Below, one piece after another: positions 27,830 to 46,987 of a stretch of DNA of 64,000 bases (position 1 is its first letter; the number at the start of each line of letters is the position of its first letter). This stretch comes from Nitrospirota bacterium. Lineage in GTDB: Bacteria > Nitrospirota > Thermodesulfovibrionia > Thermodesulfovibrionales > UBA6898. Below the pieces are notes generated by a model. It was not told the DNA's origin. It was given only the letters and a program-made list of their open reading frames with translations, and ran no database searches. The position numbers and the translations under genes were made by a program. The stretch spans positions 1-64,000 of the forward strand of contig JAJZPM010000003.1 of NCBI GenBank assembly GCA_021811105.1. Reading direction: 5' to 3'.

Positions 27830-28900
27830 ATGTATCAGAAAAGCGACGTGAACGTACTCGTGGTGGATGATGATGAATTTGTGCTTGATTCAGTATCGGC
27901 GCTCCTAAAGGAACGCGGTTACCACGTCGCAGCCTCGGGCAGTGCAAGGGAGGCATTCGCCAAGTTGCGGGAAATAAAGACGAACGTCGTGGTCACCGAC
28001 ATAAAGATGCCCGACGTCACGGGCGTCGAACTGCTCGAAAAGATCCATGCCCTGAACCCCGACATACCCGTTATCCTCATGACAGCGTACGCGGAACTGG
28101 ACGTGGCGGTCGACGCGATCAAGAAAGGCGCCTTTGACTTTCTCACCAAACCGTTCGGGAGGGATTATCTCTACCATGCTGTGGAGAAGGCAGTGCGCTA
28201 CTACAGACTCCTGGAGCTCGAACGGGACTATAAGGCCAACCTGGAAGAGACGGTGAGGAAGAGGACGAAGGAACTCGCGGACGCTGTCGTCATGGTCAAG
28301 AGCCTCAGCAGGGAGGTAGTGCAGAGATTAACTGCAGTCGCCGAATTCAGGGATACGGACACGGGCGAGCACATATCGAGGATCGGCCTGTACGCAAACA
28401 AAATCGCGGAGGCACTCAACATGCCTTCTGAGTTCGTCGAATCGGTAACCTTCGCGAGCGCCATGCACGATATAGGGAAAATCGGGATCCCGGACAGTAT
28501 CCTGCTCAAGCCCGGCGCCCTTACCAAAGAAGAATTCGAGGTCATAAAGACACACACGACCATAGGGGAGCATATGCTTGCCGGTTCGATCCATCCGGAC
28601 ATAAGGATGGCAGCGTCGGTCGCGCTCAACCATCATGAGCGATGGGACGGGACAGGATACCCCAGAGGGCTGAAGGGTGAAGACATTCCTATCGAGGGAA
28701 GAATCTGCATCATCTGCGACCAGTACGACGCACTCATGAGCAAGCGGCCGTATAAGCCGGCCTTGAGCCATGATGAGGTTTTCAGGATCATCACCGAGGG
28801 CCGCGGAAGGACCCAGCCGTCTCATTTCGATCCCATGGTACTACAGGCCTTTCTTGAGGTGTCACCCGTTTTCGAAGAGATATATGCCCAGCATCAATAG
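27830..28900 (+). CDS. Response regulator with HD-GYP cyclic-di-GMP phosphodiesterase domain
   Basis: The protein has 356 residues. It has a receiver domain (about 8-125, Asp57 in [13 protein letters not shown]), a coiled linker (about 140-165), and an HD-GYP domain with [11 protein letters not shown] and [11 protein letters not shown], all metal and catalytic residues present. It would cleave cyclic-di-GMP in response to a kinase signal. The start has GGGGG upstream. The transcript may follow the sensor kinase at 25686. Confidence 0.93.
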
Positions 28901-32077: not shown

Positions 32078-33847
32078 ATGTTGCGTAATCGATGGAACTT
32101 GCTTCCCCCGCGAGATGATCAGCCGCTGCTAAAATATGTCGTTTTCCGGCTTGAAGACTTTGAAGATATTTCTCTGTCATCGGCAAGAAAAAGATTCCTG
32201 TTATCCACTGCAGGTATTTTGGGTTTTGTAGTGGTCATATCGCTGACGTTGCCTTTGCTCAAAATAGTTTTTCATTCAGATGACATACGTTGGATAAATC
32301 CTTCAACCCACACACTTCTTGAGACTTCCGGCAGTTTGATTTCAATCATTATTGCCATGATATTGTCATGGGAATATCTGGCATCGGGAAAAACCAACGT
32401 CCTTTTTCTTGTCTATGCCTTTTTCGCTATTAGTGTTCTGGACTTCTTCCATGCTTTCTCGGATTATTCTCATAACTTGTTCGTCTGGTATCATTCAGCA
32501 AGTGCCCTAATGGGTGCCCTTTTCTTCTTCTGTTCGATGTTTGTTTTCCATGACGATAGACCCGATTCTGATCATTCAGTATGGATAAGAAGATTCTCGA
32601 TCTTCTCCGGAATTTTCGTAATTCTTCTTTTTACCGTTTTGTTTTCCGCATATCATTCATTTGTTCCTAACGTTCTGTCAATATCATTGCAGCAGCAAAT
32701 TAATGTTTCCATGGCAAAAGGCCGCTTCAGTGCTTCTATCTATGCTGTTAATTATGCCGCTTGCGTGCTTTATGCGCTTTCGGGAATTCTGTTGGTCAGG
32801 GGTTTTCTGAAAACCAATGATGTCATGTACCTAATTTTCGGGACATCGACGCTCCTCTTCTTCATAAGTCAGCTCTTTTTTGCTTTTTCGGAATTATGGA
32901 ACCCCATGTGGTGGTATTGGCATATCGTAAAAGCGGTCCTTTTTTCGGGCCTTCTCCTGGGACTTGCCTACGGATTTACAAAGACCTTTTACAGACTCTA
33001 TGTATCTAGAATGCGGTTGGCGGAGCTGCTCGATAATATTAAGGAAAAGAATTTGGAGATTGAGAAGGCTTACGTGACACTGAAAGAAACACAAAAATAT
33101 CTCAATGAATCTGAAAAGCTTGCTTCCATTGGAAAAATGGCTGCTATGATGGCACATGAAATTAGAAATCCACTGGGCGCGATCGCAAATTCAGTCGGTG
33201 TTCTAAAGAAATATAGCTTACGTCCGGAAGAAAACACCGAAATTCTCAGCCTTGTCGAAGATGAGATGGATCGATTAAACAAACTCACGGAAGATTTCCT
33301 GAGTTTTGCCAAACCCTCTCATCTCAGAAAAAATAAAACGGACCTAAACACTGTTCTTGTTGAAACGCTCTCTCTTTTGAAGACTGAAAAGACAAAATCA
33401 TCCGGGATCATCTTTCAGGAATCATTCGCCCCTGATATTCCTCCTCTCATGCTGGACAGAAATCATATCAAACAGGTTTTCATCAACATCCTAATGAATT
33501 CCCTGCAGTCGATTTCTCAAGATGGAGTGATTACAATTCTGACAAGATACAGGAAAGCAGAAGATGAAGTTGAAATTACTTTTGCCGACACGGGAATAGG
33601 AATGACCGAGGATGAACTTACAAAGGTATTTCAACCTTTTTATACGACAAAGGACAAAGGCCTGGGATTAGGACTCAACATTATTCACAAAATTGTTAAG
33701 GAACATGGAGGATACCTTCTCCTTTCAAGCAGGAAAGGTGAAGGTACAGAAATAAAGTTGAGCTTTCCTGCATGCAGGAAAACTGTTTCTCCGCAGACGC
33801 TTGATAACGTTAGTGAACTATCTGACAACATCCTGATAAAGGACTGA
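32078..33847 (+). CDS. Membrane sensor histidine kinase of a sigma-54 two-component pair
   Basis: The protein has 589 residues. Its N-terminal half holds about eight transmembrane helices with short loops, including the His/Phe/Tyr-rich LDFFHAFSDYSHNLFVWYHSA; this resembles integral-membrane sensor (MASE-like) domains. A coiled stretch, a HisKA box (MMAHEIRNPLGAIANS) and an HATPase domain with DTGIGM and GLGLGLNI follow. The signal is unknown. The regulator gene starts 5 nt after its stop. Codons are visibly AT-richer than in the housekeeping genes. Confidence 0.92.
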   Translation: MLRNRWNLLPPRDDQPLLKYVVFRLEDFEDISLSSARKRFLLSTAGILGFVVVISLTLPLLKIVFHSDDIRWINPSTHTLLETSGSLISIIIAMILSWEYLASGKTNVLFLVYAFFAISVLDFFHAFSDYSHNLFVWYHSASALMGALFFFCSMFVFHDDRPDSDHSVWIRRFSIFSGIFVILLFTVLFSAYHSFVPNVLSISLQQQINVSMAKGRFSASIYAVNYAACVLYALSGILLVRGFLKTNDVMYLIFGTSTLLFFISQLFFAFSELWNPMWWYWHIVKAVLFSGLLLGLAYGFTKTFYRLYVSRMRLAELLDNIKEKNLEIEKAYVTLKETQKYLNESEKLASIGKMAAMMAHEIRNPLGAIANSVGVLKKYSLRPEENTEILSLVEDEMDRLNKLTEDFLSFAKPSHLRKNKTDLNTVLVETLSLLKTEKTKSSGIIFQESFAPDIPPLMLDRNHIKQVFINILMNSLQSISQDGVITILTRYRKAEDEVEITFADTGIGMTEDELTKVFQPFYTTKDKGLGLGLNIIHKIVKEHGGYLLLSSRKGEGTEIKLSFPACRKTVSPQTLDNVSELSDNILIKD

Positions 33848-33851
33848 ACGG

Positions 33852-35207
33852 ATGAAAATACTTGTTCTCGACGACCAAATTGGTATGCGAAGAAGCCTAG
33901 GCATTCTACTGAGAAAAGAGGGTTTTCATACTGACGAGGCTGAGAATGGGAAACAGGCCATTTCATATTTTGAAAAGGGGCCTTACGATCTTGTCATTAC
34001 AGACTTGAAAATGTCTCCGGGAACGGGTTTGGACGTTCTTTATTTCGTGAAAGAGCGGCATCCCAATACCGATGTAATAATCATGACCGGCTATGGCACG
34101 GTAGATTCTGCTGTACTGGCCATGAAGATGGGAGCTTTCGATTACATTTTGAAGCCGTTCAAAAACGAGGAAATACTGCACAGAGTCAGGAAATCAATGA
34201 ATCACCTGGAAACAACAAGAGAGCTGTCTTCGTTGCACAAAAGGGGAACGTCTGAAAACAGCAAGGTTCCCCTTCTAGGTAACAGCACAGCTATCAAAGA
34301 AATCGTAGCCGTCATGCATAAGATTTCGAATCTGGATATATCGATATTGCTCACCGGAGAGACCGGTACGGGGAAGAGCCTTATCGCTAAGACAATCCAC
34401 AGCCTTAGCTCCAGAGCTGATAAGCCATTTATCTCAATTAATTGCGCTTCTGTTCCCGAAAATCTACTCGAAAGCGAACTCTTTGGTCACGTAAAAGGTG
34501 CATTCACCGGCGCACTGCTCGAAAGGAAGGGACTATTCGAGGCTGCAGAAGGAGGTTCAATACTACTCGATGAAATAGGAAGCATGCCTTTTCCAATGCA
34601 GGCAAAACTACTGGATGTTCTTCAGGACCGGGCGATCCGCAGAATAGGCAGTAACAAGAGTAAAGCAATAAATGTAAGAGTTATTACCGCTACTAATACA
34701 GACATTATCAAGGCAATAGACAATGGCTTATTTCGTAATGACCTTTATTATCGGATAAAAGTTGCCCATATCCACGTGCCTCCGCTTCGGGACCATGCCG
34801 AAGATATTCCATCCCTCGGAAACCATTTTCTGGAATCCATCGGAAAAGAATTGAATAAACCTGATTTAGAATTCTCTCCTGAAGCGCTCGAATTCCTTCT
34901 GCACTATAAATTCCCTGGGAACGTGAGAGAGCTCGCCAATGCAATCTCAGGCGCTGCTGCTGTTGCAGTAAGCAATATCATTTCCGTTCAGGATTTGGCG
35001 CTCACTCTCACAAACAGCCTTACAGAAATGCCAACGCCAATCCCTCCAGAGAGAGACCTGCATCCAAATAGTCTTGAAGAATGGGAAAAGGAGCTCATCG
35101 TTGAAAGTCTCAAGAAAAATCCTAGCAATCTCACGAAGGTATGCAGTGAGTTGCGAATCGGCAGGACAACGCTTTGGAGAAAAATGAAAAAATATAATAT
35201 TGAATAA
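33852..35207 (+). CDS. NtrC-family sigma-54-dependent response regulator
   Basis: The protein has 451 residues. It has a receiver domain (about 1-120, Asp51 in LVITDLKMSPGTG), an AAA+ domain with Walker A GETGTGKS, the sigma-54 contact loop GAFTGA, Walker B and DEIGS, and a C-terminal Fis-type helix-turn-helix (LTKVCSELRIGRTTLWRKM). It activates RNA polymerase with sigma-54. The nearest strong sigma-54 promoters are the divergent pair at 45240-45523, with a palindrome between them that is a candidate binding site. It pairs with the kinase just upstream. Confidence 0.95.
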   Translation: MKILVLDDQIGMRRSLGILLRKEGFHTDEAENGKQAISYFEKGPYDLVITDLKMSPGTGLDVLYFVKERHPNTDVIIMTGYGTVDSAVLAMKMGAFDYILKPFKNEEILHRVRKSMNHLETTRELSSLHKRGTSENSKVPLLGNSTAIKEIVAVMHKISNLDISILLTGETGTGKSLIAKTIHSLSSRADKPFISINCASVPENLLESELFGHVKGAFTGALLERKGLFEAAEGGSILLDEIGSMPFPMQAKLLDVLQDRAIRRIGSNKSKAINVRVITATNTDIIKAIDNGLFRNDLYYRIKVAHIHVPPLRDHAEDIPSLGNHFLESIGKELNKPDLEFSPEALEFLLHYKFPGNVRELANAISGAAAVAVSNIISVQDLALTLTNSLTEMPTPIPPERDLHPNSLEEWEKELIVESLKKNPSNLTKVCSELRIGRTTLWRKMKKYNIE

Positions 35208-35706: not shown

Positions 35707-36240
35707 TCACATCCCCTCTCTAAGCACCCAGGTATCTGTCTTGGGAGTTATCCAATAGGAGCTTTCGCCGGAATTACTTCGAAGGACAGGCTCGGAACCA
35801 AAAACAAATCGAATCAGATACTTGAACATCATATTTATATCTCCTTCACTGTTTGTATAAAGTGACGGAATGTTAAGGGGTATGTTCAGAATATATATGA
35901 CCTGCCTACCTTTCTTTGGAAGAAGCACGGTGTTTCCATAGTCTCCGCGATGGGAGGTGCTTAGTTCCTGCCATCGGCCGAGAATTTCTGTCTGGACGTA
36001 AAAAGTTTCCTTGTCCTCTTTCAATACTATGGTTCCGTCTGACCTGTTATATACGGTTATGTCCACTCTGTAATTGTTATTGCCCTGATAAGAGATGTTC
36101 CCGACGGTGACGTTAAGATACGCAAAAGACGGATTCACTGCAAAACAATCGTCGGCGGCCATACTGCCGAGCACTATGGCCGCAAAACAGCCATATCGGA
36201 ACATTCTCTGAAGCAGGGCTATCTTTTTATGGGATTTCAC
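35707..36240 (-). CDS. Exported hypothetical protein
   Basis: The protein has 177 residues. A signal peptide (about 1-34, cleaved near DCFA) precedes a beta-rich domain: AYLNVTVGNISYQGNNNYRVDITVYNRSDG has the look of an immunoglobulin-like fold. There are no cysteines in the mature part. I know no family. It is the last exported gene of the module operon, after the YtkA-like gene. Confidence 0.65.
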   Translation of the reverse strand: MKSHKKIALLQRMFRYGCFAAIVLGSMAADDCFAVNPSFAYLNVTVGNISYQGNNNYRVDITVYNRSDGTIVLKEDKETFYVQTEILGRWQELSTSHRGDYGNTVLLPKKGRQVIYILNIPLNIPSLYTNSEGDINMMFKYLIRFVFGSEPVLRSNSGESSYWITPKTDTWVLREGM

Positions 36241-36321: not shown

Positions 36322-36735
36322 TCACTTGACATTGACATTAAACACCGCCGTATCCTCACCCTTCTTCCCTTTATTTATCCTGACATATATTTCCCATAGT
36401 CCGGGCATACTGAGGCCGACCCGTTCCACGGAATATTCTCCCTTTCCAACTTCCTTGATGATCGGCAGTGTACTTGTTCCATGTTCGTGTGCCGGCATCC
36501 AGGGGACTATCTCAATATCCAGCTTATCCTTTACTGGTGCCTTCGTCCTGCGGTCCCCGACGAATAGTCTCATGCTATTTTTCCCTACCTTTGCCTGTGC
36601 TCCTGAGAACTCAAGTGAAACAAAATACAGCCCCTGTTCAGTGGCATTTTGCTGCATTGCAAAGCCGGACAAAAAGAGACCCAAGGGTATAAAAAATACT
36701 AAGGGAAGCACGCGTTTAAATATCCGGGTAACCAT
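36322..36735 (-). CDS. YtkA/FixH-like exported protein
   Basis: The protein has 137 residues. A signal peptide or anchor (about 8-27) precedes a small beta-sandwich matching the YtkA-like domain: AQAKVGKNSMRLFVGD, IEIVPWMPAHEHGTSTLP and GLSMPGLWEIYVRI. Members of this fold group with MP-x-HxHG motifs are often linked to copper handling, so the HEH site is a possible metal ligand (inference). It lies between the two paralogous anchored proteins and the exported hypothetical protein. Confidence 0.75.
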   Translation of the reverse strand: MVTRIFKRVLPLVFFIPLGLFLSGFAMQQNATEQGLYFVSLEFSGAQAKVGKNSMRLFVGDRRTKAPVKDKLDIEIVPWMPAHEHGTSTLPIIKEVGKGEYSVERVGLSMPGLWEIYVRINKGKKGEDTAVFNVNVK

Positions 36736-36749
36736 GAGATATCCTCCTT

Positions 36750-37394
36750 TTAATGGGGCGGCATTGGAATCATGACAGGGACCTTATTATCGGCAAAGGT
36801 CACCTGCCGCAGAATATCCTTGTCGGTGATAAAGTAGGGTTTCAGATAAATATACACGTCATTGACCCTCTCGATCACCTCCTCTTCCTTGAACACACTC
36901 TGCGGCACCACGAATATGGAAATGTGAAACCGCACATGCATATAACCGTACATCTGGTAAAAACTGTACTTGAGACCACGCTTTATCGTCACTATTTTAT
37001 GGTAGAGGTGTTGCCCTTTCTCCAGCTTGATGATTTGTTCATGCTCCTTTTTTTCCTTATCGTGAATCGGCACTTCCACCCAGAAAGTCCCGCTTTGTAC
37101 ATATGCACTGACATCCGGATGGGTGGCATATACAGGCTCATCGGCCAGATTGTCTATTTTCAGGACCGCCTCATATTCCCCCGGAGCGCCGTGGACATCC
37201 CACGCATCCCGTATATCGGGGAAAATCATATAGAATGCAAGCTTTTCCAGCCGCTGTTTTTTGGCGTCTCTCTCTCTGATGATGGCATTCTCCTTCTGGC
37301 CTATATAGAAATCCACGAGAAAAAAGACTGCAATTATGCACAGAATCGAGGCGATCGACTTTCTTTTCCTTGTTAAGCCTTGCAAGAGACTCAT
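36750..37394 (-). CDS. Membrane-anchored module protein, paralogue 2
   Basis: The protein has 214 residues: one N-terminal transmembrane helix (about 14-31), a charged helix (KENAIIRERDAKKQRLEKLAF), and a periplasmic beta domain. It shares the layout and the end motif YIYLKPYFITDKDILRQVTFADNKVPVMIPM with its neighbour. By layout it could be a periplasmic adaptor or a subunit of the adjacent FtsX-type transporter. No named family is recognised. Confidence 0.7.
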   Translation of the reverse strand: MSLLQGLTRKRKSIASILCIIAVFFLVDFYIGQKENAIIRERDAKKQRLEKLAFYMIFPDIRDAWDVHGAPGEYEAVLKIDNLADEPVYATHPDVSAYVQSGTFWVEVPIHDKEKKEHEQIIKLEKGQHLYHKIVTIKRGLKYSFYQMYGYMHVRFHISIFVVPQSVFKEEEVIERVNDVYIYLKPYFITDKDILRQVTFADNKVPVMIPMPPH

Positions 37395-37467: not shown

Positions 37468-38160
37468 TTACTTGTTCCAATTTCTGAATCCCGTTATAGG
37501 CATATAAACCGGGACCTTGGTATCGCCGAAGTCAATCGCCGCCGAGATTTCTTTCTCTGTTATCCAGAAAGGCTTGAGGTAAACATATGTTTCGCTTTTC
37601 CTCTCGAATATCTCCCCTTCCTTGAACCCGCTTTCAGGCAATACCGACATCCTGGCAAGGAACCTGATATGCATATATTTCGGAATAAGATAGCGGTTGT
37701 AAGGTGTCTTTGGATTTATAGTCAGTATTCTTTGGAAGGAATGAGGACCGGTGCCGAGCTTGTACATCTGTTCCTTCTTTTCCGCTTCTGCATCGGTAAC
37801 AGGGACCTCCATCCAGGAAATGGTGCCGACCTGCATAAATGCCCTGACTTCAGGATAGTCTATATACACCGGTTCGTCGCCGATGTTGTCTATTCTGATC
37901 GTCGCTGCGTATTTCCAGTTCTTCCGGATATCTTTGGTTTCCTGGATGTCCCGCACATCGACGGAAAGCATGTAAAAGGCCTCTTTCTCAAGCTTTTTTA
38001 TCCTCTCTTCCCTGGCCCTAATGATCGCCTCCTGTCGTTCGGCCACAAGGTAATCGACCGCCACCGCCAAAAGCACAGTTGCCGCCAATAAGACCACAGC
38101 TTTCCGCCTCAGGAACCGCGGGAGCATCTTTCTCGTATTATTTTTCCCCGCCAGTCCCAT
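37468..38160 (-). CDS. Membrane-anchored module protein, paralogue 1
   Basis: The protein has 230 residues with the same plan as the next gene: transmembrane helix (about 22-38), charged helix (ERQEAIIRAREERIKKLEK), and a beta domain with KYAATIRIDNIGDEPVYIDYPEV and YVYLKPFWITEKEIS...FGDTKVPVYMPI. It starts 3 nt after the ATPase gene, so it is almost certainly co-expressed with the transporter. The two genes probably arose by tandem duplication. Confidence 0.7.
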   Translation of the reverse strand: MGLAGKNNTRKMLPRFLRRKAVVLLAATVLLAVAVDYLVAERQEAIIRAREERIKKLEKEAFYMLSVDVRDIQETKDIRKNWKYAATIRIDNIGDEPVYIDYPEVRAFMQVGTISWMEVPVTDAEAEKKEQMYKLGTGPHSFQRILTINPKTPYNRYLIPKYMHIRFLARMSVLPESGFKEGEIFERKSETYVYLKPFWITEKEISAAIDFGDTKVPVYMPITGFRNWNK

Positions 38161-38163
38161 GTA

Positions 38164-38892
38164 TTACACCTTGCATGGAGGACACGCTATGGCTTCATCT
38201 TTCAGGAATACCCCATCTTTCAGGTGCACAATACGGTCGGCCCTGTTCGCTATTTCAAGATCATGCGTAGACAAGACGATAGCGATATCCTTTTCCTTCG
38301 AGAGCTTACGGAATGTCTCGATCACGAACAAGCGGTTATCCCTGTCAAGGTTTGCCGTAGGCTCGTCTGCCAGGATCATCGCAGGATGTGTTATAAGAGC
38401 CCGCGCAATCGCGACTCTCTGTATTTCACCGCCACTCAGCTGACTCGGCATATGGTAAAGCCGATGTCCTAATCCGAGCGACTTGATAATCTCTATCCCT
38501 TCATTCCTTATATTCCCGTTTCGATTCTTCGGTTTGAAGAAATTAAAGGGCAACAGGGTATTCTCTAATACGTTCAGCATCCGGAGAGGTTTTGCGTCCT
38601 GAAAGATAAAACTGAATTTTTCTCTCCGGAAATGAACAAGCTCTTCTTCCGATAGCGTGTCTATCCTGGTACCTTCAAGGATAACTTCTCCCTTGCTCGG
38701 GCGGTCCAGTGAACCGATGATGTTTAATAAAGTCGTCTTGCCGGAACCGCTTGGGCCAACAAGGGCAACCAACTCTCGCTTGTTGATCGTTAAGGAGACA
38801 TGCTCAAGCGCGGTCACCTCACCATAAGATAAGTTGAAAGTCTTGTTGACATTCTTCAACTCCAAAAAAGCGGTGCCATTGCTATTGTCCAT
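38164..38892 (-). CDS. ABC transporter ATPase (LolD/MacB type), A
   Basis: The protein has 242 residues with Walker A GPSGSGKTTLL, signature LSGGEIQRVAIARAL, Walker B MILADEPTANLD and the switch His in LSTHD. It belongs to the group that powers FtsX/MacB mechanotransmission transporters rather than classic importers. I chose the ATG at 38892, which has GGGAGG at 7 nt and lies 2 nt after the permease stop. Confidence 0.93.
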   Translation of the reverse strand: MDNSNGTAFLELKNVNKTFNLSYGEVTALEHVSLTINKRELVALVGPSGSGKTTLLNIIGSLDRPSKGEVILEGTRIDTLSEEELVHFRREKFSFIFQDAKPLRMLNVLENTLLPFNFFKPKNRNGNIRNEGIEIIKSLGLGHRLYHMPSQLSGGEIQRVAIARALITHPAMILADEPTANLDRDNRLFVIETFRKLSKEKDIAIVLSTHDLEIANRADRIVHLKDGVFLKDEAIACPPCKV

Positions 38893-38894
38893 AA

Positions 38895-40085
38895 TCATCC
38901 CTCCCATTGTGTTCTGAAACTTTCCGTGATTTTTATTCTGGACAACCGGTATATAGGATAAGAACTGGCTGCAAAACTGCAGAAAACACCAACAAGCAAG
39001 GCCACCAGGACATAGAGGAGGTTAACTCTTACTCCAGTCCCGAGTTTAAGGAGAAAGGAATCCAGCAGATACGTCATAAACAGGCCCAGGGGATATCCGA
39101 TCATCCCGCCAATGAGTCCGATGGTCAGGTATTCGGAGAGAAATATGGTCAGAAGTTGCGACCTAGATGCGCCCACGGACTTCAGCAAACCAATTTCCTT
39201 TACCCGGGAATAGAGTACACTCGTCATTATATTAAAGATTGAGAATATACTCACCGCTACGGTTGCCACAACAATGGCCAGCAGGAATTTAAGCGTTTTT
39301 TTCAGCAGCGTGTATTTCATTGTGCTGAACTGCTGGGGTGAAAGCGCGGTGATGTTCGGGATATTTCTGTTGATATCCTCCACCGCTGCCTGGAGTAATT
39401 TCTTGTCTTTATCGAGGGAAACATTCTGGATGTTGATAACGGACACGAAACCGGTTTTATCAAAGAGTTTTTGCACTTCGGCAAAAGGCGCAAAGACCAT
39501 GTAATCCTCGGAAGAGTTATAGTTCTGCAAAATGCCCGCAACCTTAAACTCGGAACCGTTGATCGTGACTGTATCATTTAAAGATATTTTTCGGGAACTC
39601 GCATACGTCCCGCCGAGGACCGCCTCCCTGTCACTTGTCGGCCATCTCCCATCGGTCAGGGTCCATGAGGGCTTTGCCTCCAACTCGGATTTGAAGTCAA
39701 CACCTGCAACGACTGAACTGACTTCATATTTTCCCGCAAGAACTTTCTCATCTTTATAGAAGCGCACTACGGTAATAATCCTGTCCTTAGGGTTGAGGAT
39801 AATTTCGCGTACCCTTTTTTCAATCTCCCTAACCACTCCCTCAGGGATGTATTCCTCGGTGTTTACACCTATCTGATTGATCCTGTCCACGCGAACATTC
39901 TTGGGTTGAACGATCAGGGTGAAACCGAACTTGGACGCCAGGTTCGACAGGGAGCTGTCTGCATTATCGAAGGTCAGCAGTATTGTGCTGAGAATAGCAA
40001 CAGGTATTACGATCGCAACTAACAGATAGAGGCTTTTCCCCTTTCTCCGGAATATATCTTTTATCGCTAAGACGATAAGTTCCAT
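38895..40085 (-). CDS. FtsX/MacB-type permease A
   Basis: The protein has 396 residues: one N-terminal transmembrane helix (about 18-38), a large periplasmic domain (about 40-265), then three helices at the C-terminus with the FtsX domain signature SRVKEIGLLKSVGASRSQLL. It ends in KITESFRTQWEG, nearly the same as permease B, so the two are related. It would couple with ATPase A. Confidence 0.9.
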   Translation of the reverse strand: MELIVLAIKDIFRRKGKSLYLLVAIVIPVAILSTILLTFDNADSSLSNLASKFGFTLIVQPKNVRVDRINQIGVNTEEYIPEGVVREIEKRVREIILNPKDRIITVVRFYKDEKVLAGKYEVSSVVAGVDFKSELEAKPSWTLTDGRWPTSDREAVLGGTYASSRKISLNDTVTINGSEFKVAGILQNYNSSEDYMVFAPFAEVQKLFDKTGFVSVINIQNVSLDKDKKLLQAAVEDINRNIPNITALSPQQFSTMKYTLLKKTLKFLLAIVVATVAVSIFSIFNIMTSVLYSRVKEIGLLKSVGASRSQLLTIFLSEYLTIGLIGGMIGYPLGLFMTYLLDSFLLKLGTGVRVNLLYVLVALLVGVFCSFAASSYPIYRLSRIKITESFRTQWEG

Positions 40086-40086
40086 A

Positions 40087-41505
40087 TCAGCTCTCCCATT
40101 GCGTTCTGAAGGTTTCGGTTATCTTAAGTTTTGACAGTTTATACGCGGGATAGATAATTGCTACCAGGCTGCATACGACCCCCAGGATAAGCGCTCTCGG
40201 AAGAAAATCGGTGGATATCCGGATTACAGCGCCTATGTCAAGGAGAGTATTCAGAATGTATGCCATTCCCAATCCCAGCAAGTATCCGATGATGCCGGCT
40301 GCAAGACCGAGGATGAAATGCTCGTAGATGAAGATCCTGAACAGCTGAGATCTGGATGCGCCGATAGCCTTTAACATGCCTATCTCTCTGATGCGTGCAT
40401 AAAGGGAGCCGGTGACTATATTGAATATGGAGAAGATACCGACGGCGATCGTTGATACGACGACGGCAAGCAGGAATTTGTACAGCATGTTGAAAAAGTC
40501 AAATTGCACCCCGGCAACGTCAAGTTGGGAAACAGCAGTAATTCCGGTTACGTTCTTGTTCAGTTCCACCATTGCGTCGCCGACAGGACAGTTGGGACAC
40601 ATAGCCCGGACGCTCACCAGCGATATAAGCCCCTCTTTGCGAAAAAGGCTCTGAGCAGTACTCAGGGGGATAAATACCATATAGTCATCAGCCGAGTTTG
40701 TTTCTTCCAGGATCCCCCTGACGGTGAATTCAGTTTTATTGATAGCAAGCCTATCACCTAGTTTCAGTCCTCTTGCCTTTGCATAAGCGCCCCCCAGATA
40801 CGCGTCATCCCATCCCTTTAGTATCGGCTTTACCGGCGCGACCTTGTCTTTCTTCTTCTCCTCCTCGGCAATTATTCTGCCGCTGGAATCAACGCCATAA
40901 CTGGTTTTATCTATAACAACGTTGCCGTGGGAGTCTAATTTGTATTGAGTGGAAATATTTGTATTTACATCTTTGATATCAGTGTCTGCCGGCCACTGGC
41001 CACTGGTCAGGTTCCACCAGAATCTCACAAAATATTCTTTGCGTAACTCGATACCGGTAACGATCACTTCCTGGCCGTTTACTTCAGCTTTTTCGAAGAG
41101 CCGCGGCGCCCATGTGGCAGGTTCCAGGACCACACCGGGAACACCCGGATTTGAAACCAATCCGCCTTTTTTCTCCCAACCGGCTTTTATGGCCTCGTCA
41201 TAGTTCTTCATTATTTCCGGTACTGCAGCTTCGGGGATATAGGAACCGAGAACGACTTCTGATGTGGTTAATTTATACTCCTGGCCCTTTCCTCCGGCAT
41301 TGGCGCCCGAAGAACTTGCCGCCGGCCGGACTGTCAGCGTATGACCTGTCTTGGCGATAATTTCCATGATTGCCAGATTCGCCGAATTGCTGACAATCGA
41401 CAGAGAAGTAAGGAGAGCGACGGCTATGACGATAGAAGAGGCGATCAGCATATTTTTCTTGGGTCTTCGCATCAACTCTAAAATGGAAAGTTTAAGGATT
41501 TTCAT
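40087..41505 (-). CDS. FtsX/MacB-type permease B
   Basis: The protein has 472 residues with the same plan as permease A but a longer periplasmic domain, including a Cys pair in MCPNCPVG and a Lys/Glu-rich insertion near residue 210. The FtsX domain reads ARIREIGMLKAIGASRSQLF. The ATG at 41505 overlaps the stop of ATPase B in TAATG. The CxxC in the periplasmic part is unusual and could bind metal or be redox-active. Confidence 0.9.
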   Translation of the reverse strand: MKILKLSILELMRRPKKNMLIASSIVIAVALLTSLSIVSNSANLAIMEIIAKTGHTLTVRPAASSSGANAGGKGQEYKLTTSEVVLGSYIPEAAVPEIMKNYDEAIKAGWEKKGGLVSNPGVPGVVLEPATWAPRLFEKAEVNGQEVIVTGIELRKEYFVRFWWNLTSGQWPADTDIKDVNTNISTQYKLDSHGNVVIDKTSYGVDSSGRIIAEEEKKKDKVAPVKPILKGWDDAYLGGAYAKARGLKLGDRLAINKTEFTVRGILEETNSADDYMVFIPLSTAQSLFRKEGLISLVSVRAMCPNCPVGDAMVELNKNVTGITAVSQLDVAGVQFDFFNMLYKFLLAVVVSTIAVGIFSIFNIVTGSLYARIREIGMLKAIGASRSQLFRIFIYEHFILGLAAGIIGYLLGLGMAYILNTLLDIGAVIRISTDFLPRALILGVVCSLVAIIYPAYKLSKLKITETFRTQWES

Positions 41506-42236
41506 TATTTGCACACTCCATTCATAATGGCCTGCACAGGATCAGCGAGATCCTTATATATGAACCCGTCCTTCATGACAATTGTGGTTTTCGCTTTTTC
41601 CAGCCACGTGAGGCTATGGCTGACAACGATGAGGGTCTTCTTGTAGACATTGTTTATCTGGCAGCATATCTCTATAACTTCCTTCTCTGTTCTGATATCA
41701 AGCTCTCCGGTTGGCTCATCGGCCAGGATGATCTCCGGATCGTTTATAAGCGCCCTTGCTATCGCAACCCTCCTCTGTTCACCACCGGAAAGCTCTGAAG
41801 GGAATGAATTCACCTTGCTTTTCATATCGAGGTCGGTCAATAGGGATATCGCTTTCGACTTCAGCGCATCGGTGTCTTTTTTGCGTGAATTACTGTTGAA
41901 AATTGCCGGCATGACGACATTGTTCAAAACATTGAGTGTCGGCAGCAGACTAAATGATTGAAACATAAAGCCTATTTTCCTGTTCCTGAAATTCGAAAGC
42001 TGGCTGTCATTGAGTTTCCATATGTTCTTTCCTTCGATCAAAACAGTCCCTTCCGTAGGCCTCGTCAGACCTCCGATCGTACTGACAAGGGTCGTTTTGC
42101 CCGAGCCTGAATGTCCCATGAAAACGACAAAGTCGCCTTGCGCTATTTCGAGATCCACCCCCTTTAATGCTTCCACGCGCTGATCGCCTACATGATAGAT
42201 TTTCTTTAATCCGTTCGTCCTGATAAATTCGCTCAT
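41505..42236 (-). CDS. ABC transporter ATPase (LolD/MacB type), B
   Basis: The protein has 243 residues with Walker A GHSGSGKTTLV, signature LSGGEQRRVAIARAL and Walker B EIILADEPTGELD. It starts just after permease C ends and overlaps permease B, so it may serve both. The C-terminus continues past the usual end with KDGFIYKDLADPVQAIMNG. Confidence 0.93.
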   Translation of the reverse strand: MSEFIRTNGLKKIYHVGDQRVEALKGVDLEIAQGDFVVFMGHSGSGKTTLVSTIGGLTRPTEGTVLIEGKNIWKLNDSQLSNFRNRKIGFMFQSFSLLPTLNVLNNVVMPAIFNSNSRKKDTDALKSKAISLLTDLDMKSKVNSFPSELSGGEQRRVAIARALINDPEIILADEPTGELDIRTEKEVIEICCQINNVYKKTLIVVSHSLTWLEKAKTTIVMKDGFIYKDLADPVQAIMNGVCK

Positions 42237-42237
42237 A

Positions 42238-43452
42238 TCATAACCCCTGTTTCATAGTTTCGTGCGGGTCGATTCTTACCGCAACAAGCGCAGGATATGC
42301 CGACCCGCTGATACCCATCAACAGAGCGATAAGTATCGCACCGCCGGCCATCAAACCGATAATTTCAACTGGGGGCAATATAAACGGTATATTGAGGAGT
42401 CTGAGATAAAATACGATCGACCTCTGAAATATCTTCAACAGACCGCCTCCTATCAACATGCCCACGAAGCCGCTCATAACGCTCGTAAGCAGGGCCTCAT
42501 AAATAATGAGCTTGAAGATGTCGGGCCGTGTGGCACCGATCGCCCTGATTATTCCCAGCTCTCTCTTTCGCTCGTTGACCACTGCGGAGTATATGGCATT
42601 GATCATGAGTATGTTCGAAAGGACCAGAACGACGATTAGTGCAATAATGCCGGAAAAGACTGCAACCGTCGTCTGACGGGCCGACGTCGCAATATTTCCG
42701 GTAGTGACGGCCTTGAGCTCCGGGTTTTCCTTTAAAATGGAAAAGGTAATAAAGGGTATCTTTGCTCCGACCTCCAGCTGTACCAATCCACCGGATATCT
42801 TTCCTCTTAATGGTGCAAGTGGCTTGATTGACTTGTCAGACTGTGAATAATCTGACATTTCATAGGCTTTTTGAATATTAAAGAAGATTGCATTATCATA
42901 TAATCCAATCCCTGTTCTTTCGAGCTTTCCCCAGACCGTAAGAGGGATTCCATAGAACTTCACAATATCGCCTATCTCCCACGGTGACATCGCTCCGATG
43001 ATTGCACCGTCAGCAGGAAAGGCACTGTCCGCTTTCTTGTCGACCCAGGGCATGACAGTAAAATCATCGGTAGGATCGAACCCTATCAGAAAGGAATTGC
43101 CCATAACGCAGCATTCACCGGTTGCACTCGTAAGGAAGATCTGTCCTGACACCCTCTTGACTCCCTTTAGTGCACGTATCTTGGCAAGCACTCCCGAGTC
43201 CATATAAAAGGCAGATGGCTCCCCTGTCAGAAGGGCCGATTTCATAGCTACCAGGGAGTCCTTAGGAATTACAAGAAGATCAGCGCCCAACTTCGAGAGT
43301 CCTTCGTCCAGGCTGTGCTGGATCCCTAAAATAAGCAGTGATGACGCGAATAATGCCCCAATGACAATGCTTACACTTATCAGGATTATATAAAACCGTA
43401 AATGCTTCACCTGCAGGTTCTGGTATGCCAGTCTGAACAGAGATATGATCAT
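42238..43452 (-). CDS. FtsX/MacB-type permease C
   Basis: The protein has 404 residues: N-terminal helix (about 20-42), periplasmic domain, and three C-terminal helices with NERKRELGIIRAIGATRPDIFKL. It is more distant from permeases A and B than those are from each other; its end reads IDPHETMKQGL. The start ATG has AGGAGG upstream. It follows the propeller gene after a 111-nt gap holding a hairpin. Confidence 0.9.
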   Translation of the reverse strand: MIISLFRLAYQNLQVKHLRFYIILISVSIVIGALFASSLLILGIQHSLDEGLSKLGADLLVIPKDSLVAMKSALLTGEPSAFYMDSGVLAKIRALKGVKRVSGQIFLTSATGECCVMGNSFLIGFDPTDDFTVMPWVDKKADSAFPADGAIIGAMSPWEIGDIVKFYGIPLTVWGKLERTGIGLYDNAIFFNIQKAYEMSDYSQSDKSIKPLAPLRGKISGGLVQLEVGAKIPFITFSILKENPELKAVTTGNIATSARQTTVAVFSGIIALIVVLVLSNILMINAIYSAVVNERKRELGIIRAIGATRPDIFKLIIYEALLTSVMSGFVGMLIGGGLLKIFQRSIVFYLRLLNIPFILPPVEIIGLMAGGAILIALLMGISGSAYPALVAVRIDPHETMKQGL

Positions 43453-43563: not shown

Positions 43564-45102
43564 TTACGTAGTCGTGCAGCGTGAAATTGCCAGTCCCTTG
43601 ACTGACCTGGGAACGATGCAACTGTCGTGGTGTCCGAAAGGACTCGGGAGAAGACCGTAAAGCTTATCATCCTTCACCCGTACGACGTAGGTTCCGGACT
43701 TTGTCTTCTGGTATCCGCTGTACACCCCGAACAGCCATTTCCCGTCGTCTGTGCACGCTATGGTATGTGTATCTGGCCCGATGTTGATCACCTTGGTGAT
43801 CTTCCAGGTCCGCGTATCAACGGCGCATATGCCGTTCATGCTGGGCGACGGCCACCACAGGGTGACATACAGCTTCTTGCCGTCGGGCGTAAAGCACATA
43901 TGGAACGGATTGGGATACGCGCCTCTCCAGCTCGGATCGCCCACCCCTGCGACTCTTCTCCACTTCGTGGGATCGGAATAATTGCTGGAGTCGAATACAG
44001 CCATAACGTTTTCCCTGGCATTGTTCATGAGCAGGAAGCGGTCTCCGGTGGGATTGAAACCGGCTTGGTGAGCAGGAGTGGGGATGTTCTTGAACGTTGC
44101 TGTCCACTCGCCGTCGCCGACCTTCTTGAAGGGGACCTGAAATCCCTGCGCCGCATGTTTTTCTGATCCCACGCAAATCGCCTTGGGTTCCCACGTCTTT
44201 GTATCAAACACAACTCCGCATCCGATCAGTCTGAGCGCGGCTACCGCGTACTTCTTGTGCTGCGGTTCCCAGGTCAGAGAATCTAGGGCACAGAGGTTCT
44301 TCAGGTGCGGGCCCGGCACCTTCCCCTGCTCGGCAAAAAGTTCTCCTCCGGGAACAAGTTCCCAGTCTACCTTGATGCCGTTTGTGCCCTTCAGGTGATA
44401 GGGCGGTTTCAATTTCTTGATGGTAAGCGTCCCGCCATCAACCCATGCCCGGGCGAGCTCAGAGTTATTGTATTCCCAGTCGAACTTTATTACCGCTTCG
44501 ACTGAAGACGGCTGGGTGCCACGCCCCTTTTTGAATACTGCAAAAATGTCTTTTTGCCCGTCCGCCACCGAAAAGCGCTCGTTGTCCGGCGCGATTGTGA
44601 CATGCACGCCAAGACCGACGCCGGTTGTTTCAGCAACGTCCTCCAGTATATTCATCTTGGTGCCGTCATAATTGATCCGCCAGATATTGAACCCTGGAGC
44701 CGGATCTTTCACCGGAGTCGTGACGCCGTAGATATAGAGATTCTTCCCTCCCTGGGAATCCACCACATATTCGAATTCCTTGTAGGGATCCGGCGAGGCA
44801 AACGCAGCGATATGATGGACAATAGGGGTCTTGTTCCCGGCCCAAATGCTCATATTCAGCCAAGCGAGACAATTACCAGTTGACATATCATATGCGCCTA
44901 CGCCTCCGGCGTATTTCCCCGGGACAAGATGGATATACTTGCCGATCTGCTTGTAGACATCGTCAAACGTCGGATCGCCGAACATGACGGCTTCAGCCGT
45001 GCCCGAAGAACTGATGCGCTTACCAAGACCAAGCTTGCTCATACCGCTTAATGCAGCTCCTGCAACCGCTGCCTTGAATAAATTGCGCCTCGAAATACTC
45101 AT
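43564..45102 (-). CDS. Tat-exported His-rich beta-propeller, NosZ N-domain-like
   Basis: The protein has 512 residues. A twin-arginine signal (SRRNLFKAAVAGAAL) is followed by repeated blade motifs (FTPDGKKLYVT, CTDDGKWLFGV, FNPTGDRFLLMN). Histidines stand at blade starts: H96-H97, H167, H266, H345, H401, H446 and H491-H492. This recalls the propeller of nitrous-oxide reductase, where seven His hold the CuZ centre, but no C-terminal CuA domain is present. A metal site is inferred. The ATG at 45102 has AAGGAGG upstream. It is first in the operon behind a sigma-54 promoter and divergent from tatABC. It could also be a non-metal YVTN-type propeller. Confidence 0.75.
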   Translation of the reverse strand: MSISRRNLFKAAVAGAALSGMSKLGLGKRISSSGTAEAVMFGDPTFDDVYKQIGKYIHLVPGKYAGGVGAYDMSTGNCLAWLNMSIWAGNKTPIVHHIAAFASPDPYKEFEYVVDSQGGKNLYIYGVTTPVKDPAPGFNIWRINYDGTKMNILEDVAETTGVGLGVHVTIAPDNERFSVADGQKDIFAVFKKGRGTQPSSVEAVIKFDWEYNNSELARAWVDGGTLTIKKLKPPYHLKGTNGIKVDWELVPGGELFAEQGKVPGPHLKNLCALDSLTWEPQHKKYAVAALRLIGCGVVFDTKTWEPKAICVGSEKHAAQGFQVPFKKVGDGEWTATFKNIPTPAHQAGFNPTGDRFLLMNNARENVMAVFDSSNYSDPTKWRRVAGVGDPSWRGAYPNPFHMCFTPDGKKLYVTLWWPSPSMNGICAVDTRTWKITKVINIGPDTHTIACTDDGKWLFGVYSGYQKTKSGTYVVRVKDDKLYGLLPSPFGHHDSCIVPRSVKGLAISRCTTT

Positions 45103-45239
45103 CTTTTTACCTCCTTTTTTGTATTGCATTTTATATGGTTCATTCCCGCCCGATGACGTTTGCTGACTAACTCCCTTGCCACCTCCTTTTGTCATTTCTT
45201 ACCGCGTCTTTGCCTTGAGCGATCCATTCATCGCAATCA

Positions 45240-45589: not shown

Positions 45590-45775
45590 ATGTTTGGTCT
45601 TGGCTTGCAGGAATTAATAATCATTTTAGTGATAATCATGGTTTTGTTTGGAGGGAAGAGATTGCCGGAACTTGCAGAAGGGATGGGAAAAGCGATCAGG
45701 AATTTCAAAAAAGCTTCTCTGGAGGATAACGCCCTTAACGTTACACCCAAAACAAATTCAGATAATGAAAAATAG
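45590..45775 (+). CDS. tatA: Sec-independent translocase protein TatA
   Basis: The protein has 61 residues: N-terminal helix (GLGLQELIIILVIIMVLFGG), the hinge GGKRLPELAEGMGKAIRNFKKA, and an acidic tail. It forms the transport pore of the twin-arginine pathway. The ATG at 45590 has GAGGAGG upstream. It is first of three tat genes facing away from the Tat substrate gene at 45102. Confidence 0.92.
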   Translation: MFGLGLQELIIILVIIMVLFGGKRLPELAEGMGKAIRNFKKASLEDNALNVTPKTNSDNEK

Positions 45776-45907: not shown

Positions 45908-46186
45908 ATGCTCGACATTGGCTTTCAAGAGATAATAATAATTTTTGCTGTTGCCCTTATAGTCATAGGCCCCAAACAACTTCCTGAATTCAGCAAGAAA
46001 CTCGGGAAATGGATTCTGGAGATTAGAAAAGGTGTAAATTTGGCCAAGAGCCAAATAACGGAAGAGATTAACAAAGACATCCAGATTTCCGGGGAAAGGT
46101 CAGGGACTACTGCTCACCCTCTCCGGGAAGATGACGAAAGAGATGACGTCATGAGTGAACACAATGTTGCTGAGGAAAAGACATAA
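45908..46186 (+). CDS. tatB: TatA/TatB-family protein, probably TatB
   Basis: The protein has 92 residues. The N-terminal helix and GPKQLPEFSKKLGKWILEIRKG fit TatB better than TatA, as does the longer amphipathic region. It would form the substrate receptor with TatC. The ATG at 45908 comes after a 132-nt gap from tatA; no strong ribosome site is visible. Its stop is directly followed by the TTG start of tatC. Confidence 0.85.
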   Translation: MLDIGFQEIIIIFAVALIVIGPKQLPEFSKKLGKWILEIRKGVNLAKSQITEEINKDIQISGERSGTTAHPLREDDERDDVMSEHNVAEEKT

Positions 46187-46987
46187 TTGGAAGATACAAA
46201 ACTACCTTTGACAGAACATCTTACGGAACTGCGTAAAAGAATATTAATATCGGTAGTAGTTTTGTTTTTCGCATTTCTCTTTTTTTTTAACTATTCGGAA
46301 GAATTGTTTAAACTTATTACTTTCCCTCTAAACTCAGAAATAAAGCTTGATCTTGCAAATCCCTATATTCGTATAGAGGAAAAAGTCGGCCCCCCGCTGG
46401 TTTTTCTTGCAGTTGCAGAGGCTTTCTGGATACACTTCAAGGTTTCTTTCGTCGCGGCCTTTATTGCCTCGTTGCCGATAATATTTTATCAGTTGTGGAG
46501 TTTTATCGCCCCGGGCCTGCTTGAAAAAGAGAAGAGATATGTTATGCCATTTGTGTTATTTGCCACGCTGCTTTTCCTGGTCGGGTCTCTGTTTTGTTTT
46601 TATGTTGTTCTGCCTTTTTCACTCACTTTTTTGCTGGGATATAAAACAGCCTCTTTAACGCCTATGCTGTCGGTCGAAAAATATATCGATTTCTGTTTGA
46701 AATTCATCCTTGCCTTCGGATTAATTTTCGAACTCCCAGTGGTTATATTGTATTTGACAAGATTCGGAATAGTTTCGCCAAAGACCCTGGCAAAACACAG
46801 AAAATACGCTGTCCTTTTTTCTTTTATTGCAGCCGCCATTCTAACCCCTACGCCTGATGCATTCAATCAGGTACTCATGGCAATTCCTATCATTCTTTTA
46901 TATGAAATCGGCATGCTTTTATCTATAATTATCTACAGAAAAAGAAAAGTGCCTGATGAAAGAGGAAAAGTGCACAAAACCATTTAG
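46187..46987 (+). CDS. tatC: Sec-independent translocase protein TatC
   Basis: The protein has 266 residues and six transmembrane helices. It opens with LPLTEHLTELRKRILIS and contains the conserved FYQLWSFIAPGLLEKEKRYV and F-E-PVVI regions. It recognises the twin-arginine signal. The start is TTG at 46187, just after the tatB stop, with GAGG 11 nt upstream. In this window it could serve the propeller and the formate dehydrogenase. Confidence 0.94.
   Translation: MEDTKLPLTEHLTELRKRILISVVVLFFAFLFFFNYSEELFKLITFPLNSEIKLDLANPYIRIEEKVGPPLVFLAVAEAFWIHFKVSFVAAFIASLPIIFYQLWSFIAPGLLEKEKRYVMPFVLFATLLFLVGSLFCFYVVLPFSLTFLLGYKTASLTPMLSVEKYIDFCLKFILAFGLIFELPVVILYLTRFGIVSPKTLAKHRKYAVLFSFIAAAILTPTPDAFNQVLMAIPIILLYEIGMLLSIIIYRKRKVPDERGKVHKTI

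Follow-up and report, generated by a model that had tools for sequence, protein, structure and literature searches.

A thiocyanate dehydrogenase homolog and its operon in a Nitrospirota genome

The gene at positions 45102 to 43564 (minus strand) of the window, the whole 64-kb stretch of Nitrospirota DNA that was analysed, is by homology a thiocyanate dehydrogenase (TcDH), a member of a known copper enzyme family and not a relative of nitrous-oxide reductase (NosZ). Its activity and its copper are likewise assigned by homology. The assignment comes from a phmmer search against the PDB, residue mapping, and fold searches with an AlphaFold model. The open reading frame, of 512 amino acids, starts at the ATG at 45102, and another in-frame ATG lies upstream at 45195. 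A first-pass annotation had the coordinates right; the gene is read on the minus strand only, the plus-strand frame at 43564-45102 being interrupted by stops. The host genome, a Nitrospirota MAG of 3.94 Mb in 93 contigs, has a single TcDH copy. The enzyme family is known and, on the literature searched, the host phylum is new. That literature, which took in few subscription journals and can carry no claim of priority, gave no description of TcDH in Nitrospirota. PMC8906906 has a tcdh gene in a passage that is taken to concern MAG 65, Thiohalobacteraceae, and PMC8958297 mentions thiocyanate dehydrogenase only in its references.

Sequence, fold and active site

The protein matches nine distinct TcDH sequences in the PDB over residues 46-512, with E values of 1e-171 to 1e-155. 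It is 55% identical to the solved enzyme of Pelomicrobium methylotrophicum (PDB 8q9x, 8z75) and 53% identical to that of Thioalkalivibrio paradoxus (PDB 5f75). The homology to the Pelomicrobium enzyme is full-length and includes all active-site residues, but the window protein falls into a separate phylogenetic group and has five residues missing after Pro233 and minor insertions at other places. No Pfam family was found for it, TAT_signal being the only model listed at E 10, and a PHROGs search gave no match. NCBIfam returned weak partial scores only, 18.4 bits for hydrazine synthase beta (NF052340, curated cut-off 560 bits) and 16.5 bits for the clade III lactonase-type NosZ, L-NosZ (NF052460, cut-off 700 bits). 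Membership of NosZ, clade III NosZ and hydrazine synthase beta was rejected on model scores. Local blade-repeat similarity to hydrazine synthase beta and to a YVTN surface-layer propeller is seen at residues ~394-460, but the match is partial and the hydrazine synthase model stays far under its cut-off.

An AlphaFold model was built from an 11-sequence alignment (mean pLDDT 79.5, pTM 0.83). With this model the top Foldseek entries are all TcDHs (E 9e-63 to 4e-57). VIA superimposes it on TcDH structures with Z scores of 57.5-58.4 (58 for the Pelomicrobium enzyme) and an rmsd of 1.6-2.0 Å over 456-461 residues. The next families in VIA are lactonases and a YVTN propeller, at a Z of about 33. NosZ comes further down, at Z 27.5 among WD40 proteins and generic propellers (Foldseek 1.7e-11). 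The first-pass annotation had called the protein a NosZ-like propeller lacking the CuA domain. The β-propeller is borne out, as is the missing CuA domain; no such Pfam domain is present and residues 45-511 are all occupied by the TcDH fold. The likeness to NosZ gave way to full-length TcDH homology, profile searches yielding no meaningful NosZ score and the fold comparison placing TcDH first. The propeller shared with NosZ is real in the predicted model, but points to no specific relation between the two.

The published TcDH active site consists of Lys103, His135, His136, Gln156, His206, Glu288, Asp314, His381, His437, His482, His528, Asp529 and Arg544 (PMC6504805). By alignment all 13 are identical in the window protein, where they are, in the same order, K63, H96, H97, Q117, H167, E248, D274, H345, H401, H446, H492, D493 and R508. 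In addition Y125, which is conserved, corresponds to Tyr164 of the Thioalkalivibrio enzyme, the proposed electron exit (PMC9456337). Nine blade histidines had been listed in the first pass. All nine are where it placed them and seven (His96, 97, 167, 345, 401, 446 and 492) belong to the TcDH active-site set, as H135, H136, H206, H381, H437, H482 and H528. The eighth, His266, is private to the window sequence, with Arg in every relative. The ninth, His491, is conserved nearly always, but it is absent from the published list and is Ser in homolog L046. An alignment of 15 sequences shows no variation at His96, 97, 167, 345, 401, 491 or 492, and has His446 in all but one. The proposal that such histidines build a metal site survives in modified form; by homology they would make a multi-copper site, with the trinuclear set of TcDH and not CuZ. 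The window protein thus resembles NosZ in its β-propeller and in a putative histidine-built multi-copper site at the channel. It differs in having no NosZ family match, no CuA domain, another operon, a predicted trinuclear site, and a chemistry that would be oxidation and not reduction. That the chemistry would be other than N2O reduction had been foreseen as one possibility, and agrees with the TcDH assignment by homology.

A Tat-type signal, with the motif SRRNLF and a hydrophobic stretch, can be read from the sequence. The Pfam TAT model scores it at 9.3 bits, below the cut-off of 22.7. Despite this the Tat-type reading, already made in the first pass, is supported by the relatives and by the adjacent tatABC genes.

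The operon, its promoter and the proposed mechanism

On the minus strand TcDH is followed by an ABC permease with MacB_PCD and FtsX domains (42238-43452; Pfam), syntenic with and 45% identical to its counterpart in Thioalkalivibrio thiocyanoxidans ARh2, and by a LolD-like ABC ATPase (41505-42236), also syntenic with ARh2, whose best NCBIfam model is LolD at 227 bits, under cut-off. Next are a second MacB_PCD and FtsX permease (40087-41514; Pfam, locus comparison), a third permease of the FtsX/MacB type (38895-40085; Pfam) and a second LolD-like ATPase (38164-38907; NCBIfam, locus comparison). Hypothetical protein A (37468-38160) has no Pfam match over cut-off and is present in the Tat-type Nitrospirota loci. 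Hypothetical protein B (36750-37394) has a 26% identical homolog (E 2e-21), likewise a hypothetical protein, in the TcDH operon of ARh2. The series ends with a YtkA-like protein (36322-36735; PF13115, E 3e-12), conserved in Nitrospirota loci, and hypothetical protein D (35707-36240), without a Pfam match and conserved in most Nitrospirota TcDH loci. The plus strand encodes a MASE3-type sensor histidine kinase (32078-33847; Pfam), with homologs beside TcDH in ARh2 and relatives, and a sigma-54-dependent response regulator (33852-35207; Pfam), 47% identical to its counterpart in the TcDH operon of ARh2 and with a GAFTGA motif read from the translation. Upstream of TcDH and divergent from it, also on the plus strand, are tatA (45590-45775, its start set at an internal Met of an ORF from 45494), tatB (45908-46186) and tatC (46187-46987), which score over the cut-offs of TIGR01411, TIGR01410 and TIGR00945, respectively.

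The window genes stand in the same order as in the ARh2 locus (L009), at 26-50% identity, and identities to Nitrospirota MAG loci reach 93%. The core shared with ARh2 is TcDH-permease-ATPase-permease-ATPase-hypothetical-kinase-sigma-54 regulator. Among loci complete enough to tell, the third permease is limited to the Tat-type Nitrospirota; it is absent from L007-L009, L043 and L044. The TcDH gene of Thioalkalivibrio precedes genes for four ABC subunits, for hypothetical proteins and for a sigma-54 two-component system, and tatA lies close by (PMC5328954); the enzyme likewise has a Tat-type signal. When ARh2 grows on thiocyanate its TcDH gene shows the strongest induction of all genes (logFC 7.5) and the neighbours rise too (PMC5744179). 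The window differs from Thioalkalivibrio in the host phylum, in the extra permease, the YtkA-like and other genes, and in that copCD and fccAB were not recognised beside its TcDH. No cus copper genes were recognised there either, nor NosD-type nos maturation genes, the positions being taken instead by FtsX/MacB and LolD-like ABC proteins, the YtkA-like protein and unmatched proteins. A CXXCH scan of the window ORFs found no cytochrome near TcDH. Elsewhere in the window, at 27830-28900, an HD-output response regulator resembles a NosR-named c-di-GMP phosphodiesterase family (224 bits, cut-off 400).

A sigma-54 -24/-12 promoter sequence, TGGCACCCAGCTTGCT, is found at 45254-45239 on the minus strand, 137-152 nt upstream of the TcDH start. 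It is the only -24/-12 site with zero mismatches in the 64-kb window. Sites upstream of TcDH in the relatives score 11 of 11 in L002, L005 and L044 and 10 of 11 in L004, L006 and L007. Altogether a site scoring 10 or 11 of 11 lies at most 300 nt upstream of TcDH in 7 of 14 homologous loci. The background is 1.7% of random 300-nt stretches reaching a score of 10, a conservative figure because it includes the loci themselves. Most of the remaining loci peak at 9 of 11, for which the chance level is 7%.

The favoured reading, with a probability of close to nine in ten, is that of a periplasmic, operon-regulated TcDH with three coppers that works as in Thioalkalivibrio; its copper, substrate, products and electron route are modelled on that enzyme. 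There, thiocyanate is bound by three coppers in the propeller tunnel and its carbon is attacked by a water molecule. Cyanate is released, and two one-electron oxidations bring the sulfur to the elemental state, the electrons exiting through His528 and Tyr164 to cytochrome c (PMC9456337). Because every listed residue is kept, this mechanism can be provisionally transferred to the window protein. The three copper ions would sit in the central channel of a seven-bladed propeller, within a site built by His96, 97, 167, 345, 401, 446 and 492 together with Lys63, Gln117, Glu248, Asp274, Asp493 and Arg508. The operon would be switched on from the -24/-12 site by the sensor kinase and the sigma-54 regulator. 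The hypothetical proteins and the ABC proteins of the FtsX/MacB type would most probably serve the copper site, in its maturation or supply, or else remove the sulfur product; for the ABC proteins we infer a role in copper-site maturation. Homology is no guarantee of measurable turnover, as others detected no activity in a purified Thiohalobacter TcDH (PMC6934394).

Distribution, host physiology and alternative readings

The named relatives of the window TcDH are from Thermodesulfovibrionales and other Nitrospirota MAGs. A homolog scoring >300 bits is present in 13 of 396 sampled Nitrospirota genomes, and TcDH was absent from four further genomes of the host genus, of which two have a completeness of at least 94%; the distribution is thus patchy. 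The only homolog found in looking for close plasmid-borne copies was one of 41% identity in Methylocella tundrae. The tree has supported groups of Tat-type Nitrospirota (100/99), Sec-type Nitrospirota (98/98) and proteobacteria (100/98), the branching order among them being without support. Both Nitrospirota groups occur inside the host's own family (genomes G000, G013, G014 and G023 versus G011).

The host encodes an aa3 cytochrome c oxidase, with CtaD 0.25 bits under the curated cut-off and CoxB over its cut-off, and an oxidase with FixO and cytochrome c domains. DsrA is over its cut-off, with DsrC, DsrM and DsrK nearby. DsrD was found neither in the host nor in any sampled member of its family, and was rejected as a marker separating TcDH carriers since all those members lack it. 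A cyanase gene was found neither in the host nor in five TcDH-carrying relatives, and cyanase was accordingly dropped as a partner enzyme; Thioalkalivibrio is also reported to be without one (PMC6504805). The NosZ propeller (PF18764) was not found in the host, and one of 11 TcDH-carrying genomes, G053, has a nos_propeller match.

Three features would each fit a TcDH-fold copper oxidoreductase that acts in Nitrospirota on another small sulfur or pseudohalide substrate, thiocyanate being at most a side substrate: the window lineage forms a well-supported group apart from the enzymes of proteobacteria (100/99), its operon has an additional permease together with YtkA-like and other hypothetical genes, and no cyanase was found. 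This appears unlikely, since the window protein matches the characterised enzyme at all 13 active-site residues and at the proposed electron-exit Tyr, and the operon core and regulator class are the same. Propellers are common and many are non-catalytic, and an inactive or structural homolog with no redox role may be imagined on that ground. It is very improbable; the active-site residues are invariant across phyla where much else varies, and the operon and promoter are conserved. A true NosZ relative without CuA, reducing N2O or a similar gas through another electron donor, can be virtually dismissed, for although NosZ turns up in the fold searches and L-NosZ scores weakly, that score is a small fraction of its cut-off, no NosZ Pfam domain appears even at E 10, NosZ ranks among generic propellers far under TcDH, and the neighbours are not recognised as nos genes.

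Sec-type and divergent lineages

The TcDH reading extends to a second Nitrospirota lineage. Homologs in G011, G053, G115 and G310 (L043:7329-8750, L044:9288-10676, L045:9370-10782 and L046:3563-4984) have Sec-like signals without twin arginines, as read from their sequences, and retain both the full set of 13 residues and the ABC genes. This argues that copper loading in the cytoplasm may not be obligatory for TcDH. The first-pass view that the Tat signal implies cofactor loading before export is weakened by this sister lineage with the same active site, although the signal itself stands. NosZ, too, has both Tat-type and Sec-type lineages, and the split of TcDH runs parallel to it. In two of the Sec-type loci the stretch from the sigma-54 regulator to TcDH contains small ORFs (L044:11128-11424, L045:8645-8974) that have a lipoprotein-like start and two CXXCH motifs and are candidate electron acceptors.

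The Tautonia, Methylocella and Nitrospirota G243 homologs cluster together (97/100), and each carries Gln at the copper-site position of His482. This TcDH-like subfamily (L010:10001-11368, L047:3699-5117, L060:8755-10599) spans Planctomycetota, Nitrospirota and a Methylocella plasmid. The same change was engineered in mutant 6sji, and in 8yu5 at the equivalent His447. No homologs of the window ABC genes were found beside the Tautonia and G243 genes; at the Methylocella gene a permease and an ATPase are retained. A further Nitrospirota homolog, in G360 (L048:9296-10756), is 31% identical and has the 13 active-site residues by alignment, but Tyr164 is replaced by Asp and none of the genes beside it is homologous to the ABC genes.

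What appears new in detail, from the sequences, is the presence of two TcDH lineages in Nitrospirota, Tat-type and Sec-type, and of a separate natural His482-to-Gln subfamily. A wider proposal, which is tentative and more doubtful than probable, is that Dsr-type Nitrospirota gain energy from thiocyanate through both lineages. The Sec lineage would then show periplasmic assembly of the trinuclear copper site, with the MacB/FtsX-type ABC proteins as machinery, as NosDFY is for NosZ.

TcDH, characterised only recently and known mainly from sulfur-oxidising proteobacteria, is extended by these findings to Nitrospirota sulfur bacteria with a whole operon and its regulator, and thiocyanate is suggested as an overlooked substrate in this group. 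Tat- and Sec-type lineages with the same active site and ABC genes may offer a lever on the location and mode of assembly of the trinuclear copper site. The His482-to-Gln subfamily, a natural form of a change made in the laboratory, may provide a further one.
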